Assembly: GCF_009834785.1 (NCBI RefSeq)
Contig: NZ_WUYX01000070.1
Span: 145,622 to 209,621 of the forward strand
DNA length: 64,000 nucleotides
DNA from: Natronorubrum halalkaliphilum
GTDB lineage: Archaea; Halobacteriota; Halobacteria; Halobacteriales; Natrialbaceae
Direction of reading: 5' to 3'
Positions 26,372-34,901 of this stretch are shown piece after piece. Position 1 is the stretch's first letter. Every line of letters begins with the position of its first letter. Position numbers and translations under genes: made by a program. The notes beneath the pieces are model-generated. The model had not been told where the DNA came from. It saw only the letters and a list, made by a program, of their open reading frames with translations, and searched no databases.

Positions 26372-27391
26372 TTACTCGGCTGCCGCTTCGGCTTCTTCCT
26401 CGTCGTGATCGACGTCCTCGTCGGAGCGGGCCGCGACGAGTCCACCGCGTGCGACGCTGTAGAGCGGTTCGTTCGCGTGCGTGACGCCGCTGATCGAGAA
26501 CGGAATGTTCGCGTCCTCGAGGTGGTCACGGAACAGCGCCTCGAAGCCGCTCGGACTCGAGGTACCGCCGGTGACGACCACGGGGACGTCGAGGCCTTCC
26601 TCGACGTCTTCCTCGTCGACTTCCTGGACGATGTTCTCGATGACGTAGTCGAGCAGGTTCTCGTAGTAAATCGAGAGCGCGCCCTCGACGCCGCCGACGT
26701 CGGTCGTGAAGTCGAGTTCGAAGTCGTCTTCCTTGATCGAGGTAACCTTGTCGACCGGCGTCCCCGTCGCGCGGGCTGCCTGCTCGTCGACCCAGTCGCC
26801 ACCGCGGGCGACGGAGAACTTCATGACGGGCACCGCGTAGTAGGACAGACAGACGTTCGTCATCCCGGCACCGAAGGAGATGCCGAGTCCGGTGAAGTTG
26901 TTGTCCGCGAGTTCGCTGTAAATGACGGACATTCCTTCGTTGATCGGTTCGGAGTCGTATCCCATATCGTCGAGGAACGACTCGATCGTCTTCTGGTGGT
27001 ACAGCGTCGAGAGATCCGAGTCGATCGGATCCGCGGGCGAGGAGAAGTACAGTTTCTCGTCGGGATAGGCTGGTTCGCCGACGACCTGTTCGATGATGAG
27101 CTTCATCATCGGGATCGCGCTCTTCTCGTCGTTCGAGAGGATCCCGTGTTTCATCGGCCGTCGGGTCTCCTTGTTGAAGATGTTCGCAAAGTTGAGGGCG
27201 TCGTCGCCGACGACGTACACCTTGTCATCTTTCCGAATGTGGAGTACTTCGCTTCGCGAGAGCATCTGCTCGGCCATATCCGAGTACTCGATCTCGACGA
27301 ATGAGTTACGCTGTTGCACGAAAACCGTGTCGTTCCCATCCTGCTGTGCAGACAGGATGTTCATCGTTCCAACGTCTAGGCCTTTCGCCAT
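26372..27391 (-). CDS. salactin/volactin-type archaeal actin homolog
   Basis: The protein has 339 residues with an actin/Hsp70-type ATPase fold. The phosphate-1 loop is [12 protein letters not shown] (about 4-15), phosphate-2 [19 protein letters not shown] (about 167-185), and the adenosine motif [12 protein letters not shown] (about 274-285). It closely resembles what I know of haloarchaeal salactin (filaments that aid DNA inheritance in Halobacterium) and Haloferax volactin (cell shape). The C-terminus is an acidic tail rich in Glu/Asp/Ala. It has its own strong TATA box, so it is probably monocistronic, although the four-helix membrane protein gene lies just upstream on the same strand. 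Confidence 0.85.
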
Positions 27392-27489: not shown

Positions 27490-28398
27490 TTACTCGCGGC
27501 GAACGAGTTCACGAAACCGGTCGACGACGCCTGAGAGGGGCGAGAGTACGCCGTCGTCGTCCGCCGTCGCCAGTTCCTCCGCGCGCTGTTGCTCGCGCAG
27601 TTCCTTCAGTTTCGCCGTCTGGTCGTCGACCGTCGATTGCGAGGTCGTCTTCTTCTTCTCGCCGCCTTTCAGTCCCTTGAGGCCGGCGACCTGCGCGTCG
27701 ACGCCGGTCGAACGAGTCGTCTTCGTTCCTGCGTCGGTGTCGACCGAAACCTCGTCGAAGTTGTCCTCCGAGAAACTGAGGCGTTTGTGTTCGGTTTTCT
27801 GGACGCCGCCCCACGAGAGTTCGACGTCCTCCATCGCGTCGTCGATATCCCTCCGCACGTCGGCGTCGGAAAACTCGTCTTCCTCGTCGGCCCCGTCGTC
27901 GCTCTCGATTGCGTCGACCCGCTGGGCCATATCGAGATAGTGGGCGATGAGCGCCGCGCCAGTCGACGCGGTGATCCCGGCGAGTCCGACCGCGTAAACC
28001 GCGACGATTTCCGCGGTGTAGTCGGCTCCATACCCGTTCCAGTCGTCGGGGTAGGCGTACAGGAATCCGGCGACCGCGACGACCGTGATGGCGACCCCCA
28101 CGAGCGACGTGTACAACACCCGACGCTCCGAGGGAAGCAAAACCACGATCCCGAGCATCAGGAGGGGGAGCGCAAGCATGACGATCGCGTACGCGGGTTC
28201 GGCCCACGTGACGTAGGCCGCGCTGCGAGCCTCGAACGTGCTACTCCAGAAGAAGAGCAACAGGGCGATGATCGCGAGGCCGATTCCGCCGAGGAACAGA
28301 CCGAAGCCGACGTAGACGTCGGTCCGATCCTCCGGTTCGCCGATGTATCGACGGTAGAGGTCGAAGAGATATCCGTCTGCAGGCTGTTCCGCTGGCAT
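27490..28398 (-). CDS. four-helix membrane protein with cytosolic tail (DUF7139-like)
   Basis: The protein has 302 residues. The N-terminal 35 residues (YLFDLYRRYIGEPEDRTDVYVGF) lead into about four transmembrane helices spanning roughly 30-165. A charged C-terminal tail of about 140 residues follows, with Lys/Glu-rich segments (GLKGGEKKKT, AKLKELREQQRAEELA) likely to be helical. I recall this family as DUF7139, not verified. It is upstream of the actin gene on the same strand, 98 bases apart, but the actin has its own promoter. A membrane partner of the cytoskeleton is a speculation worth testing. Confidence 0.7.
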   Translation of the reverse strand: MPAEQPADGYLFDLYRRYIGEPEDRTDVYVGFGLFLGGIGLAIIALLLFFWSSTFEARSAAYVTWAEPAYAIVMLALPLLMLGIVVLLPSERRVLYTSLVGVAITVVAVAGFLYAYPDDWNGYGADYTAEIVAVYAVGLAGITASTGAALIAHYLDMAQRVDAIESDDGADEEDEFSDADVRRDIDDAMEDVELSWGGVQKTEHKRLSFSEDNFDEVSVDTDAGTKTTRSTGVDAQVAGLKGLKGGEKKKTTSQSTVDDQTAKLKELREQQRAEELATADDDGVLSPLSGVVDRFRELVRRE

Positions 28399-28568: not shown

Positions 28569-29618
28569 ATGAGTCAGGAGTCGGAGTACACCGAAGGGGA
28601 CCTCCGGAACACCGGAATGCGTCTCAAGCACGATCGCGAGTGGGACTACGAACTCGAGCAGATCGTCGACGCGATCGAGGAGCGGGACGCGAAGAAAGTC
28701 GGCCTGCAGTTTCCCGAGGGACTGAAACGACGGGGACCCTCCGTCGCCGACGACCTGCGGGAACTGGCGGACGACGACGTGACGTTCATGCTCTCGGGAC
28801 AACCCTGCTACGGTGCCTGCGATCTCGACACCTACCTGATGAAACGCACCGACGTCTTCGTCCACTTCGGCCACTCGCCGATGAAGGATACGGACAAGGT
28901 GATTTACGTCCCGCTGTTCTCGAACGTCGAAGTCACGCCGATTATTGAAGAAGCGCTGGACACCCTCGAGCCACCCGAAGAGACCGGAGACGTCGGTCTC
29001 GTCACCACCGCTCAGCACATGAATCGCTACGAGGAGATGACCGAGTTCCTCGAGGAGCGAGGCTACGACGTTCACAGCCGTCGTGGCGACGACCGGCTCA
29101 CACACGAAGGGCAGGTGCTCGGCTGCAACTACGCGAGCGCGGACGTGCCCGCGGATCAAGTGCTCTACGTCGGTGGCGGGAAGTTCCACCCGCTCGGACT
29201 GGCGATGGAACACCCCGATAAACACGTCGTCATCGCCGATCCCGTCAACAACGTCGTCACCGTCGCGGACACGGAGAAGTTCATGAAACAGCGCTACGGC
29301 GCGATCCACCGCGCGATGGACGCCGAGAAGTGGGGCGTCATCTTCTGTACCAAGATCGGACAGGGTCGCTGGGAGATGGCCCAGAAGATCATCGACGACA
29401 ACGACAACGCCTACCTCATCACGATGGACGAAGTGACGCCAGACCGCCTGCGGAACTTCGATATGGATGCGTTCGTCAACACCGGCTGTCCGCGGATCAC
29501 GACAGACGACGGCCCGCAGTTCCACAAGCCGATGCTCACCCCCGGCGAGTACCGGATCGCCGTCGGTGACGAACCCCTGGATAGCCTCTCGTTCGACACG
29601 TTCCACGGGACCTGGTAG
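28569..29618 (+). CDS. dph2: diphthamide synthesis enzyme Dph2
   Basis: This radical-type [4Fe-4S] enzyme transfers the 3-amino-3-carboxypropyl group of SAM to the target His of elongation factor 2. It has 349 residues. KVGLQFPEGLKRRG begins the first Rossmann-like repeat. The three cluster Cys sit one per repeat: SGQPCYGACDLDTYL (about residue 79), EGQVLGCNYAS (about 184) and NTGCPRI (about 305). The archaeal homodimeric form is expected. Its 3' end nearly meets the broken sod gene on the other strand. Confidence 0.95.
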   Translation: MSQESEYTEGDLRNTGMRLKHDREWDYELEQIVDAIEERDAKKVGLQFPEGLKRRGPSVADDLRELADDDVTFMLSGQPCYGACDLDTYLMKRTDVFVHFGHSPMKDTDKVIYVPLFSNVEVTPIIEEALDTLEPPEETGDVGLVTTAQHMNRYEEMTEFLEERGYDVHSRRGDDRLTHEGQVLGCNYASADVPADQVLYVGGGKFHPLGLAMEHPDKHVVIADPVNNVVTVADTEKFMKQRYGAIHRAMDAEKWGVIFCTKIGQGRWEMAQKIIDDNDNAYLITMDEVTPDRLRNFDMDAFVNTGCPRITTDDGPQFHKPMLTPGEYRIAVGDEPLDSLSFDTFHGTW

Positions 29619-29631
29619 GCAGTTCAGCAGT

Positions 29632-30502
29632 TCAGCGAGTCTCGAGTTCTTCGGTCTCCTCGTCATGATGATCGCCGTGTTGGTCATCACGTCCGCCGTG
29701 GTGCTTTCCGTCCTCCCGTAGCCCTCCGTGTTCAGTGAAGAATTCGTAGCGCCGGCCGACGTTCTCCCAATCGACGACGTTCCACCACTCTTGGACGCAC
29801 GCCTCTCAGTCGTTCTCGTACTGGAGATAGTACGCGTGCTCCCAGACGTCGAGCGTTAGAATCGGGACGGCGGCCTGATGGGCGAGTTCGTTCTGGTCTT
29901 CGACCTGTCCGACGACCAGCGTCTCCGCGAGCGGTTCGTAGAACAGCATCGCCCAGCCGTCACCCTCGACCTCGTTCGCGGCCGCGCTGAACTCGGCCCG
30001 GAAGTCCTCGAACGAGCCGAACGCCGCCTCGAGTGCTCCCCCGAGTTCGCCGTCGGGAACGCCGCCGTCGGGGACTCATGTTCTGCCAGAAGATAGTGTG
30101 ATTGACGTGTCCCGAAAAGGTAGACGAGAAGTCGCGTTTTGCGGCCCGAATATCCTCGAACTCGCCGGCTTCGCGCATCGACTCGAACTCATCGAGGGCC
30201 TCGTTTGCTCCATCGACGTGTGACTGGTGGTGCTCGCCGTGGTGCAGTTCCATAATGCGCTCGTCGATGTGCGACTCGAGCGCGTCGTACGCGTAGGAAA
30301 GTTCCGAAAGTTGATATCGTGGCTGCTGTGCGTTCTCACTGTCGGTCTCGGCTTCCGTCGTAGCCTCATCCTCGGGGTCGTGTTCCTCGGTGGTGGCCGC
30401 TGCGGTCGCGCCCGAACCGAGTAACGAGACACCGGCCGTGCCGCCGAGCGTCTGCAGAACACTGCGTCGTCGAAGCGCCGAATCGATCGACTCGTCTGAC
30501 AT
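29632..30502 (-). pseudogene. sod: Tat-exported superoxide dismutase (Fe/Mn type), broken by frameshift and stop
   Basis: From ATG 30502 the frame gives a Tat signal (LRRRSVLQTLGG) and an acidic linker, then the SOD N-domain with both His ligands (MELHHGEHHQSHV and GHVNHTIFWQNMSP). At a four-G run (30070-30073, C run on the coding strand) one extra base shifts the frame. Removing it restores SPDGGVPDGELGGALEAAFG through LTLDVWEHAYYLQYEND, with the Asp and His metal ligands. A TGA at 29806-29808 then replaces the codon before EACVQEWWNVVDWENVGRRY. The reading continues to a His-rich tail and TGA at 29632-29634. Only these two lesions are visible, so loss is recent, or one or both are sequencing errors. 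Confidence 0.85.
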
Positions 30503-30797: not shown

Positions 30798-32033
30798 ATG
30801 AGTAATCCAGCCGTCAGCGAACGATCGACGCGTTCCCGGGACGAAATCTTCGATGTACTCGCGGACGACAAACGGCGCGAAATCCTCCGTATTGTCCGCG
30901 AACGATCGCCGACTGGAATCACGAAAACCGACCTTGCCTACGAACTCGCCGCGGTAACCGCGGATAAATCGCTCGTCGCGGTGACCGACGACGAACATCG
31001 ACGCGCACTCGTCGAGTGCCAACACCGATCGCTGCCCGCCCTGATCGACGCCAACTTCCTCGAGGAGACCGACGGAGATCGAGTCGCGACGACCGACCAT
31101 TGGTTGTTCGACGACGCCGAACTCACGGTCGCTATCAACGGCCAAACGAACGAGTTCGGAACCGATCTCGACGCTCTCTTCGAAGCGCTTTCCGACTCGC
31201 GGCGTCGAACGGTTCTCGCCGTACTCGCAAACCAGTACCACCCGATCTCGACCGAGACGCTCGCTCGAGATGTCGCGGCTCGCGAAGCGGGAACGACCGA
31301 GCGCGAAATCGGCCAGGATGACCTCGAGCGAGTGCTGGCCTCGCTCGTCCACGTTCACCTGCCCGTCCTGACCGACGCCGAACTCGTCGGCCACGACGCC
31401 GAGACGGACAACGTCTCCTACGAAGGTCACCCGGCGCTACGCGTTAGCTGGCTCGAGACCGAGAGTGAGGCTGAAAGCGAAACCGAAACCGAAACCGAAA
31501 GCGACGGAGATCAGTCGGCTACGGGCTCGTCGGCAGCCGACTCGACTTCTGAAGCCGTTCGAACGCTGCACGGCCGTGAGCAGATCGTCACGACCGGTCA
31601 GTCGCTGTGCGAGCGGGCGGAGAACGAACTGTTCATGATGTTCGCGACGACGGGGCTGCTCGAGGAGGGCTGTTTCCGGCGGATCGAGGACGCACTCGAC
31701 CGCGGCGTCGACGTCTACGTCGGCTCACGCGATCCGCGCGTACGCGAGATCGTTCGAGAACGAACACCCGAAGTCGTCGTCTGGGAGCCCGAGTTAGACT
31801 GGCACAACCTGCCGCCAAACGGTGCGTCGGTCGGCCGATTGGTGTTTGCAGACCGAAACGCAGTGCTGCTCGGGACGCTCGGGACGGCGGCCGACGACAG
31901 CGAGTACGCTGAAACGGCGATTCTCGGCGAGGGCATCGATACCGGTCTCGTCGGCCTCATGCGCCAGTTGATCGGGGCGCGACTCGACAATCTGGATCTC
32001 CAGAGTGAGACCGTCTCGGAGATTCCGCTGTAA
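30798..32033 (+). CDS. transcription regulator: two DUF7344-like winged-helix domains plus TrmB-like sensor domain
   Basis: The protein has 411 residues. Domain 1 (about 13-110: DEIFDVLADDKRREILRIV) and domain 2 (about 124-215: DALFEALSDSRRRTVLAVL) are two copies of the same winged-helix fold I recall as DUF7344. A Glu/Thr/Ser linker (about 224-245) is encoded by GAAACC DNA repeats (about 31473-31502). The C-terminal domain (about 255-405; GREQIVTTGQSLCERAENELFMMF, DRGVDVYVGSRDP, LVFADRNAVLLGTL) resembles the phospholipase-D-like sensor of TrmB regulators. It likely binds DNA in response to a small ligand. No operon partner. Confidence 0.75.
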   Translation: MSNPAVSERSTRSRDEIFDVLADDKRREILRIVRERSPTGITKTDLAYELAAVTADKSLVAVTDDEHRRALVECQHRSLPALIDANFLEETDGDRVATTDHWLFDDAELTVAINGQTNEFGTDLDALFEALSDSRRRTVLAVLANQYHPISTETLARDVAAREAGTTEREIGQDDLERVLASLVHVHLPVLTDAELVGHDAETDNVSYEGHPALRVSWLETESEAESETETETESDGDQSATGSSAADSTSEAVRTLHGREQIVTTGQSLCERAENELFMMFATTGLLEEGCFRRIEDALDRGVDVYVGSRDPRVREIVRERTPEVVVWEPELDWHNLPPNGASVGRLVFADRNAVLLGTLGTAADDSEYAETAILGEGIDTGLVGLMRQLIGARLDNLDLQSETVSEIPL

Positions 32034-32209: not shown

Positions 32210-33043
32210 ATGATACAGAGCGACTGGGAAGACTGGCTCGTCCGCGACGTCGAAGACGCAGCGCCCGACAGCGTGGCGATCTGGTATCTCGGCTGTAACG
32301 GCGTTATCCTCAAAGGGTCGGCAGGGACGACGATGTATATCGATCCCTATCTCGGCCTCGGCGATCCGCCGCGAACCGTCCGGATGATTCCCGTCCCATT
32401 CGATCCCGAAGACATCAGCGAGACCGACGCCGTCCTCGCGACCCACGAGCACACCGACCACGTCCACGGCCCGAGTCAGGCCCCGATCCTCGAGAACACT
32501 GGGGCGACGTTCTACGCGCCCGACGACAGCCTCACCGTCGCCCGCAAAGACGAGAGATGGGCGGACGAGTGGGACCTCACGGACGACCAGTTCAGCGAGG
32601 TCGCGGAGGGAGAGACCTTCGAGGTCGGCGAGTTCACGGTCCACGTCGAGACGGCGAACGATCCGGACGCGTCCCACCCAGTGAGTTACGTGATCGAACA
32701 CGAGGCCGGCACGTTCTTCCACGGCGGTGATACGAAGCCGACCGACGAGTTCGAACGGATCGGCGACGAGTACGATATCGACCTCGGCGTCCTCGCGTTC
32801 GGTACCGTCGGACAGATTCCCGACAAGCAGACCCGCGAGCCGAAGCGGACCCGCTGGTACAACGACGAAAATCAGATCGTCGAAGCCGCGTCGGCGCTCG
32901 AACTCGAGGCGCTCATGCCAACGCACTGGGATATGTGGCGTGGTCTCACGTCGGATCCGACGGTGCTCCACCATCACGCGAGGAGTTTCACGCATCCACG
33001 ACGGTTAGAACTCGTCGAGATCGGTGACCGCGTCGACCTGTAG
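32210..33043 (+). CDS. metallo-beta-lactamase-fold hydrolase (UlaG-like)
   Basis: The protein has 277 residues. The metal-binding motif HEHTDH (in VLATHEHTDHVHG, about 81-93), FFHGGDTKPTDEF with the bridging Asp, and the C-terminal MPTHWDMW His are all present. N-terminal AIWYLGCNGVILKG and MYIDPYLG are typical of the UlaG group (L-ascorbate-6-phosphate lactonase). Phosphorylated-sugar lactonase activity is only a family-level guess. No sugar-transport genes are nearby, so the substrate is open. Confidence 0.85.
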   Translation: MIQSDWEDWLVRDVEDAAPDSVAIWYLGCNGVILKGSAGTTMYIDPYLGLGDPPRTVRMIPVPFDPEDISETDAVLATHEHTDHVHGPSQAPILENTGATFYAPDDSLTVARKDERWADEWDLTDDQFSEVAEGETFEVGEFTVHVETANDPDASHPVSYVIEHEAGTFFHGGDTKPTDEFERIGDEYDIDLGVLAFGTVGQIPDKQTREPKRTRWYNDENQIVEAASALELEALMPTHWDMWRGLTSDPTVLHHHARSFTHPRRLELVEIGDRVDL

Positions 33044-33107: not shown

Positions 33108-34901
33108 ATGAGTAGCACCGCCGACACGGACGACGTGATCGAGGTCAGTGCTGATGGGTTATCCGTCCAGAAAACGTTCGCGGCGGACGAGTTCCCTGTC
33201 CCTGCGCTCCGCTTCGAGATCGAATCTGAACATGACGAACAAGTAGCATTTCGGCTCTCCGAAGATATCCCCGAATCCTTTCCGATGGATAAGGTCGGAT
33301 TTCATCCCGACTACCACAGCGACAACTGGACCGCGTTCCAGGACAATCACGTCGAGTTTACCGGGACGCTCGAGCCGGACGAACGGCTCGTCACGGTTTA
33401 CGGGATCCGCATCGATGACGAAAGCGCGGCCGAGGAGTTCCTGACGGAGCCGGACATCGTCGAGGTCAGTTCCGAAAGCGAGAGCGGCAGCGACGCCGAG
33501 GAGGTCGCCGACGACGTCATCGGAAACATCGTCTCCGAGGACCGCAATCAGGCAGTCAAGGACATGATCGCCGGCGAGTCCGAATCCGTTCCCGGGCTCG
33601 AGGACGAGACTGACGATCAAGACGCTGACGATACCGACGACACCGACGTCGACGATAGCGACACCGACGCCGAACAGACGGCACAAGACGCCCTCGAGGA
33701 GGAGTCCGGCGGCCTGGATCTCGACCTCGGCGACGTCGATACCGAACCCGCGCCGGTCGACGACGAACCGGCCGCGGAAGCCGAAGACGACACGCCGGAC
33801 ATCGATCTCGGATTCGGCGAGGACGAGATTCCGGACCCCGACGAGCCGGCTGCAGATGAGGCGAGCGCGGACGACGGCCTCGAGATCGACCTTGACGACG
33901 AAGGGATCGAGGACGAGGCAGATGCCGGCCTGGATGCCTCCGAAGAGAGTGAAGAAACGGACGAACCCGAGATCGAACTCGATCTCGAGTCGTCGGCAGC
34001 CGCCGTCGACGACGGCGACAGCGACTCGCTTGACCCCGTCGGCGAAAGCACCTCGGACGAGACCGACTCGCTCACAGACGATGGGGCGTCCGCCGTCGAC
34101 GATGGCGATCTCGATCTGGAACCCGACGCCGACGACGGAGACGACCTCGATCTGGAACCCGAGGAAACGGGCGATTCAACGGGCGATGTCGAGAGAGACG
34201 CATCGGTCGAATCCGATGTGGGGCCGGCGACCGACGACGCGGACACGGCAGCAACGACACCGGACGAGGACCGCAGCGACGCCGCCGATACCAGGTCCGA
34301 ACCGACGGTGGCGGCGTTCGATGGCTCGATCGCGACCCGACTCGCGACCGAGCTTCGAGAGGGCGAAATCAACGACGCAGACCTCGAAACCCTCCAATCC
34401 GAACTCGATCTCGAGCCGTCGGGTCCCGAACTGGCGAAGTTCGAACACCTCCAGTCTCGCGTCGAGGAAGTCGCCGCCTATATCGGCTCCCTCGAGCAGT
34501 TCCTTGAGGACAACGGCACCGGCAAACAGCTCATCGAGGAGATCCAGACCGACCTCGCGTCCATCGAAGCGGAAATGGATGGGATGGACGACCGCATCGG
34601 CGGAACCGAAGGCCGCCTCGACGAGGTCGAAACCGATCTCGAAGACGTACAGGCTGACGTCGTGACCGTCGAGGAAGCGGTCGACGACGTCGAGGCCGAC
34701 GTCGAAGTCGTTACGGACGACGTTACCGATCTCGAGGCCGACATCGAGGACGTCGAGGACGATCTCGAGGACGTTGCAGACGATGTCGACGCGGTTGAAG
34801 CGGATCTCGAAGCCGTCGAAGATGACCTCGAAGCCGTCCAGGCTGACGTTACCGACATGCAGGAGTGGCGCGATCAGCTCGGCTCGATGTTCTCGGACTG
34901 A
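33108..34901 (+). CDS. large acidic coiled-coil protein, unknown function
   Basis: The protein has 597 residues. The N-terminal domain (about 5-120) is beta-rich (FAADEFPVPALRFEIESEHDEQ, LEPDERLVTVYGIRIDD) and may be an immunoglobulin-like sandwich. Residues 120-400 are low-complexity Asp/Glu/Ser (for example DADDTDDTDVDDSDTDAEQ). A helical segment (about 410-480) leads to a long C-terminal coiled coil (about 480-595) built of repeats such as DDVEADVEVV and VEADLEAVEDDLEAV. There is no signal peptide or membrane helix, so it is probably cytosolic. Gene neighbourhood gives no pathway. It could be a scaffold or polar tether. Confidence 0.75.
   Translation: MSSTADTDDVIEVSADGLSVQKTFAADEFPVPALRFEIESEHDEQVAFRLSEDIPESFPMDKVGFHPDYHSDNWTAFQDNHVEFTGTLEPDERLVTVYGIRIDDESAAEEFLTEPDIVEVSSESESGSDAEEVADDVIGNIVSEDRNQAVKDMIAGESESVPGLEDETDDQDADDTDDTDVDDSDTDAEQTAQDALEEESGGLDLDLGDVDTEPAPVDDEPAAEAEDDTPDIDLGFGEDEIPDPDEPAADEASADDGLEIDLDDEGIEDEADAGLDASEESEETDEPEIELDLESSAAAVDDGDSDSLDPVGESTSDETDSLTDDGASAVDDGDLDLEPDADDGDDLDLEPEETGDSTGDVERDASVESDVGPATDDADTAATTPDEDRSDAADTRSEPTVAAFDGSIATRLATELREGEINDADLETLQSELDLEPSGPELAKFEHLQSRVEEVAAYIGSLEQFLEDNGTGKQLIEEIQTDLASIEAEMDGMDDRIGGTEGRLDEVETDLEDVQADVVTVEEAVDDVEADVEVVTDDVTDLEADIEDVEDDLEDVADDVDAVEADLEAVEDDLEAVQADVTDMQEWRDQLGSMFSD

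Follow-up and report, generated by a model that had tools for sequence, protein, structure and literature searches.

The minus strand of the window (the whole stretch of 64,000 nucleotides from Natronorubrum halalkaliphilum that was analysed) carries, from position 30502 down to 29632, what is left of a gene that encoded a Tat-exported Fe/Mn superoxide dismutase (SOD). The explanation that best accounts for the complete evidence, given a probability of about 0.93, is that the locus is a genuine unitary pseudogene of fairly recent origin: a disabled orthologue lies at the ancestral locus, intact copies persist in relatives, and constraint on the gene has relaxed. Several same-family relatives retain an intact Tat-SOD to which the pseudogene is orthologous, and the case is biologically ordinary, a routine gene loss caught part-way.

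Results

The remnant falls into two parts that are read in different frames. The N part (30074-30502, minus strand) is open over 143 codons, comprises a Tat leader and the alpha-hairpin domain (Sod_Fe_N, E 7.1e-26), and ends in translation with ...FWQNMS. Within the leader, the twin-arginine motif RRRSVLQTLG (30443-30472, minus strand), whose RR columns are invariant in 10 aligned relatives, is followed by a hydrophobic stretch, features that mark a predicted Tat substrate. The frame changes at a run of four (30070-30073; CCCC on the minus strand, GGGG on the plus strand), and just downstream of it one Gly codon is missing by comparison with all 13 orthologues. The C part (29632-30069, minus strand), whose segment 29810-30069 matches Sod_Fe_C (E 6.5e-25), continues in another frame that is open as far as its stop at 29632-29634, except for one premature TGA at 29806-29808, where 13 of 13 orthologues have Arg at the equivalent position. 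In a profile search the two Pfam domains (PF00081 and PF02777) are collinear and each half lies above the gathering cut-off, and the E-values of the two matches place the assignment to SOD far beyond chance. Owing to the frame change and the TGA, the locus has no single open frame encoding the whole SOD, and it is therefore a pseudogene and not a working member of the superfamily; the two lesions are independent, the first lying ahead of the C-terminal domain and the second inside it, so that, judged from the sequence, ordinary reading cannot yield the whole enzyme.

Translation of both parts bears out the extent of the locus and the positions of the frame change and the TGA as originally predicted, and the Tat signal, the four metal ligands and a His-containing tail, which had been claimed with them, are likewise present. 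The three His and one Asp that serve Fe/Mn SODs as metal ligands are all intact on the minus strand: His 1 (the His26-equivalent, 30242-30244) and His 2 (30098-30100) were located by translation and by alignments that included the solved structure 1ar4, and the Asp (29848-29850) and His 3 (29836-29838) by translation and the orthologue alignment. Gln stands 15 residues before the Asp ligand, and the Gly/Gln second-shell pattern, which we take to be a mark of Mn-type SODs, is kept. The best solved-structure match of the N part is 1ar4 itself (E 1.7e-21), presumably the cambialistic SOD of Propionibacterium freudenreichii, which differs in having no Tat leader in the aligned part and a tyrosine where the pseudogene has His. 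The tail of the pseudogene (29632-29740, minus strand) contains several His, and a His-rich tail is absent from the orthologues, whose tails vary widely in length and are for the most part acidic, with Pro/Gly-rich repeats in some (G028, G052).

Of the 96 columns of the SOD domain that do not vary among the 13 intact orthologues, the pseudogene differs at 8. One of these is the missing Gly and another is Arg to stop; the remaining six are missense (Tyr to His, Tyr to Cys, Phe to Ser, Asn to Thr and, at two columns, Pro to Ser). Five of the eight fall in the N part. The same leave-one-out count applied to the 13 orthologues gives 0 to 5 changes each, of 96 to 101 columns (22 in total). The Tyr to His change (codon 30218-30220, minus strand; CAC here, TAC in 13 of 13 orthologues) lies eight residues after the first metal ligand and, on alignment to 1ar4, occupies what we take from the numbering to be the position of Tyr34 in human MnSOD, with His in place of the second-shell tyrosine of Fe/Mn SODs. 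Tyr34 is treated as an important second-shell residue in PMC8489226. The description of the gene as otherwise intact was accordingly too generous, as the missing Gly codon is accompanied by six missense changes at invariant positions, that at the Tyr34-equivalent among them. What speaks against a pseudogene is that the gene has preserved its ligands and the greater part of its fold.

A codon model over 191 columns, fitted on a FastTree tree with weak nodes and with large synonymous distances (about 0.9), gave an own-branch omega (dN/dS) of 0.146 versus 0.069 elsewhere, an excess that is only modestly significant (p = 0.035), and rejected an own-branch omega of 1 (p = 2.6e-5). When the tips were quickly refitted one at a time, the own branch came out highest in omega (0.141) of all those with a usable branch length, G010 being degenerate with a branch length of zero. 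Treating the own branch as a simple mixture, (0.146-0.069)/(1-0.069), would put its neutral share at about 8%, a figure with a large error. Purifying selection acted through most of the own branch and was then relaxed.

Counterparts of the N part with a leader occur in 17 of the 118 relatives searched (119 genomes including our own), namely in 15 of 72 same-family relatives and in two genomes that belong to two different further families of the order, and none of their listed frames contains a stop. The best DNA match is 83%. Detailed comparison was made with 13 same-family intact orthologues, G001 and G004 (a more distant exported SOD, located elsewhere) being excluded. These 13 (G028, G005 and G052, for example) have the leader, the domains, the ligands, the Mn-type Gly/Gln pattern and the chromosomal slot in common with the pseudogene, but they are intact, whereas the pseudogene has two frame lesions, the missing Gly codon and the invariant-site changes. 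In 12 of the 13 the gene adjoins dph2, with a DUF7344 or beta-lactamase-fold gene on its other side, as in the window, where the slot is marked by the convergent dph2 (28569-29618, plus strand; diphthamide synthesis; PF01866, E 5.4e-86) and the divergent DUF7344 gene (30798-32033, plus strand; PF24035, E 5.7e-26), with a beta-lactamase-fold hydrolase gene as next neighbour (32210-33043, plus strand; PF12706, E 3.7e-19). When the slot was surveyed (76 genomes searched, 30 dph2 loci fetched), SOD was present at 5 of the 30 loci, our own included, and absent at 25; tblastn at E 1e-3 found no SOD remnant at these 25 empty loci, and a DUF7344 or hydrolase gene follows nearby at 24 of them.

The only other Fe/Mn SOD detected in the own genome is leaderless and intact (contig C49, G000:C49:83002-83565; Sod_Fe_C, E 7.2e-30). 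As a canonical leaderless haloarchaeal SOD it belongs to the same Fe/Mn SOD superfamily as the pseudogene, but it lacks a leader, is about 40% identical to the N part and lies on a separate branch of the tree. A Cu/Zn SOD was also considered as a replacement and was rejected, a PF00080 profile search of the own genome giving no match. In a rough tree, the intact Tat-SOD relatives cluster tightly, separate from the canonical haloarchaeal SODs and near some leaderless haloarchaeal ones; the node joining all Tat-flagged proteins has a support of only 0.16. Since the automatic Tat flag looks upstream of the start, it is wrong for at least two proteins that have no leader (G000cyt, G110), and the tree was used for its grouping alone. 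In one genome of another family, a SOD that has a Tat leader and a SOD that lacks one lie side by side (L048, G118:C1:454755-458015), possibly a duplication with a change of location. Among viral sequences, 18 IMG/VR contigs (L143-L160) encode distant relatives of the Fe/Mn SODs, with 31-43% identity to the exported form of haloarchaea.

Discussion

It might be supposed that the gene is intact and that both interruptions are errors of sequencing or assembly, as the frame change falls within a short homopolymer run, the assembly is a 72-contig draft and the metal ligands are kept. However, two independent errors would then be needed in one gene, when a screen of 48,724 codons in 139 comparable conserved own genes from two own contigs revealed no genuine internal break, and neither the missing Gly codon nor the six missense changes at invariant sites, the Tyr34-equivalent among them, would be accommodated. 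The stricter screen initially flagged 4 of the 139 own genes and, when run in reverse, 2 of 144; on inspection, none of the four own flags stood as a real break, all being ORF-start or overlapping-frame artefacts (presumably, to judge from the protein letters, a gatC/gatA overlap, an SRP19 shadow frame and two upstream leaders). Looser screens flagged many genes (31 of 107, 17 of 122 and 9 of 123 own genes, with 30 of 119, 15 of 118 and 8 of 120 in the respective reverse directions) because they took in shadow ORFs on the antisense strand and N termini drawn too long. The SOD escaped the screen, as the C49 paralogue without a leader scored 187 versus 186 bits. The decay at invariant residues together with the lack of genuine breaks in the 139 genes means that sequencing error alone explains the locus badly, and we regard it as highly improbable. 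The original prediction offered a gene that died very recently or an assembly carrying errors; the former half holds, in that an exported SOD is broken and its loss is recent relative to its own branch, where omega is well below 1, but the latter half is unlikely.

Residual function of the locus has still less to commend it. The N fragment might still be made and, though lacking the C-terminal domain, have gained a new function as a short exported protein, consistent with its open frame, its retained Tat leader and an own-branch omega that is still below 1; however, such a protein would lack two of the four metal ligands, most of the invariant-site changes fall within this very part, and a low omega is expected from the time before the loss, all of which makes this a very remote prospect. 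Least credible of all is programmed recoding, in which a +1 slippage on the C run and readthrough of the TGA would together produce a full-length exported enzyme. A Pro codon within the C run is, on general grounds, a plausible +1 slippage site, but every aligned orthologue has a single frame free of stops and shows no conserved recoding site, the RNA fold around the frame change is not unusual (z 0.49), and the active-site and other invariant residues are decaying. TGA is moreover the normal stop here and the commonest terminator, closing 61 of the 117 conserved own genes counted for this contig.

For a genuine pseudogene, the following course of events may be proposed. The ancestor would have carried a Tat-exported, Mn-type Fe/Mn SOD between dph2 and the DUF7344 gene, probably inherited vertically within the family, as the shared position suggests. 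Purifying selection on it would have ended fairly recently in the own lineage, after which missense changes at invariant residues (the active-site tyrosine included), the loss of a codon beside the frame change and a stop codon would have accumulated, in whatever order, with superoxide defence presumably left to the leaderless SOD on another contig. The next stage would be an empty slot, as in most relatives. Whether the dph2-adjacent slot has been lost repeatedly, such that the family ancestor exported a SOD, many lineages shed it independently and the own genome is an intermediate, stands in our estimation at even odds; if this is true, extracellular superoxide defence may be dispensable, or replaced, in some niches. 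The locus shows an exported SOD being shed by one haloarchaeal lineage in which the leaderless SOD persists, and the series of intact, decaying and empty states at one syntenic site provides a natural comparison for when extracellular SOD pays in brine. It also serves as a warning, in that the locus should not be annotated as a functional SOD.

It had been proposed that extracytoplasmic SODs are uncommon in archaea, which fails locally in view of the 15 carriers among the 72 same-family relatives. Archaeal extracytoplasmic SODs were, in addition, already known in print, as PMC7465337 cites one that Sulfolobus solfataricus has outside the cell (Cannio et al., 2000). By its description that protein, too, is an extracytoplasmic archaeal SOD, but unlike the pseudogene it is a functional enzyme, from an unrelated archaeon. 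The matches listed for haloarchaeal or extracellular SOD included no paper on this Tat-exported haloarchaeal SOD.

Some further observations concern the slot and its surroundings. In G036 (L041, L171) the exported SOD lies away from dph2 and the dph2 slot is empty, which could reflect relocation or re-acquisition. Just beyond dph2, the window carries a volactin-family actin-like gene (26372-27391, minus strand; PF25216, E 1.8e-138), adjoined by a DUF7139 gene (27490-28398, minus strand). At 33108-34901 (plus strand) it encodes a very acidic protein of 597 residues with a coiled-coil-like C terminus, for which the Pfam coiled-coil matches are only sub-threshold.
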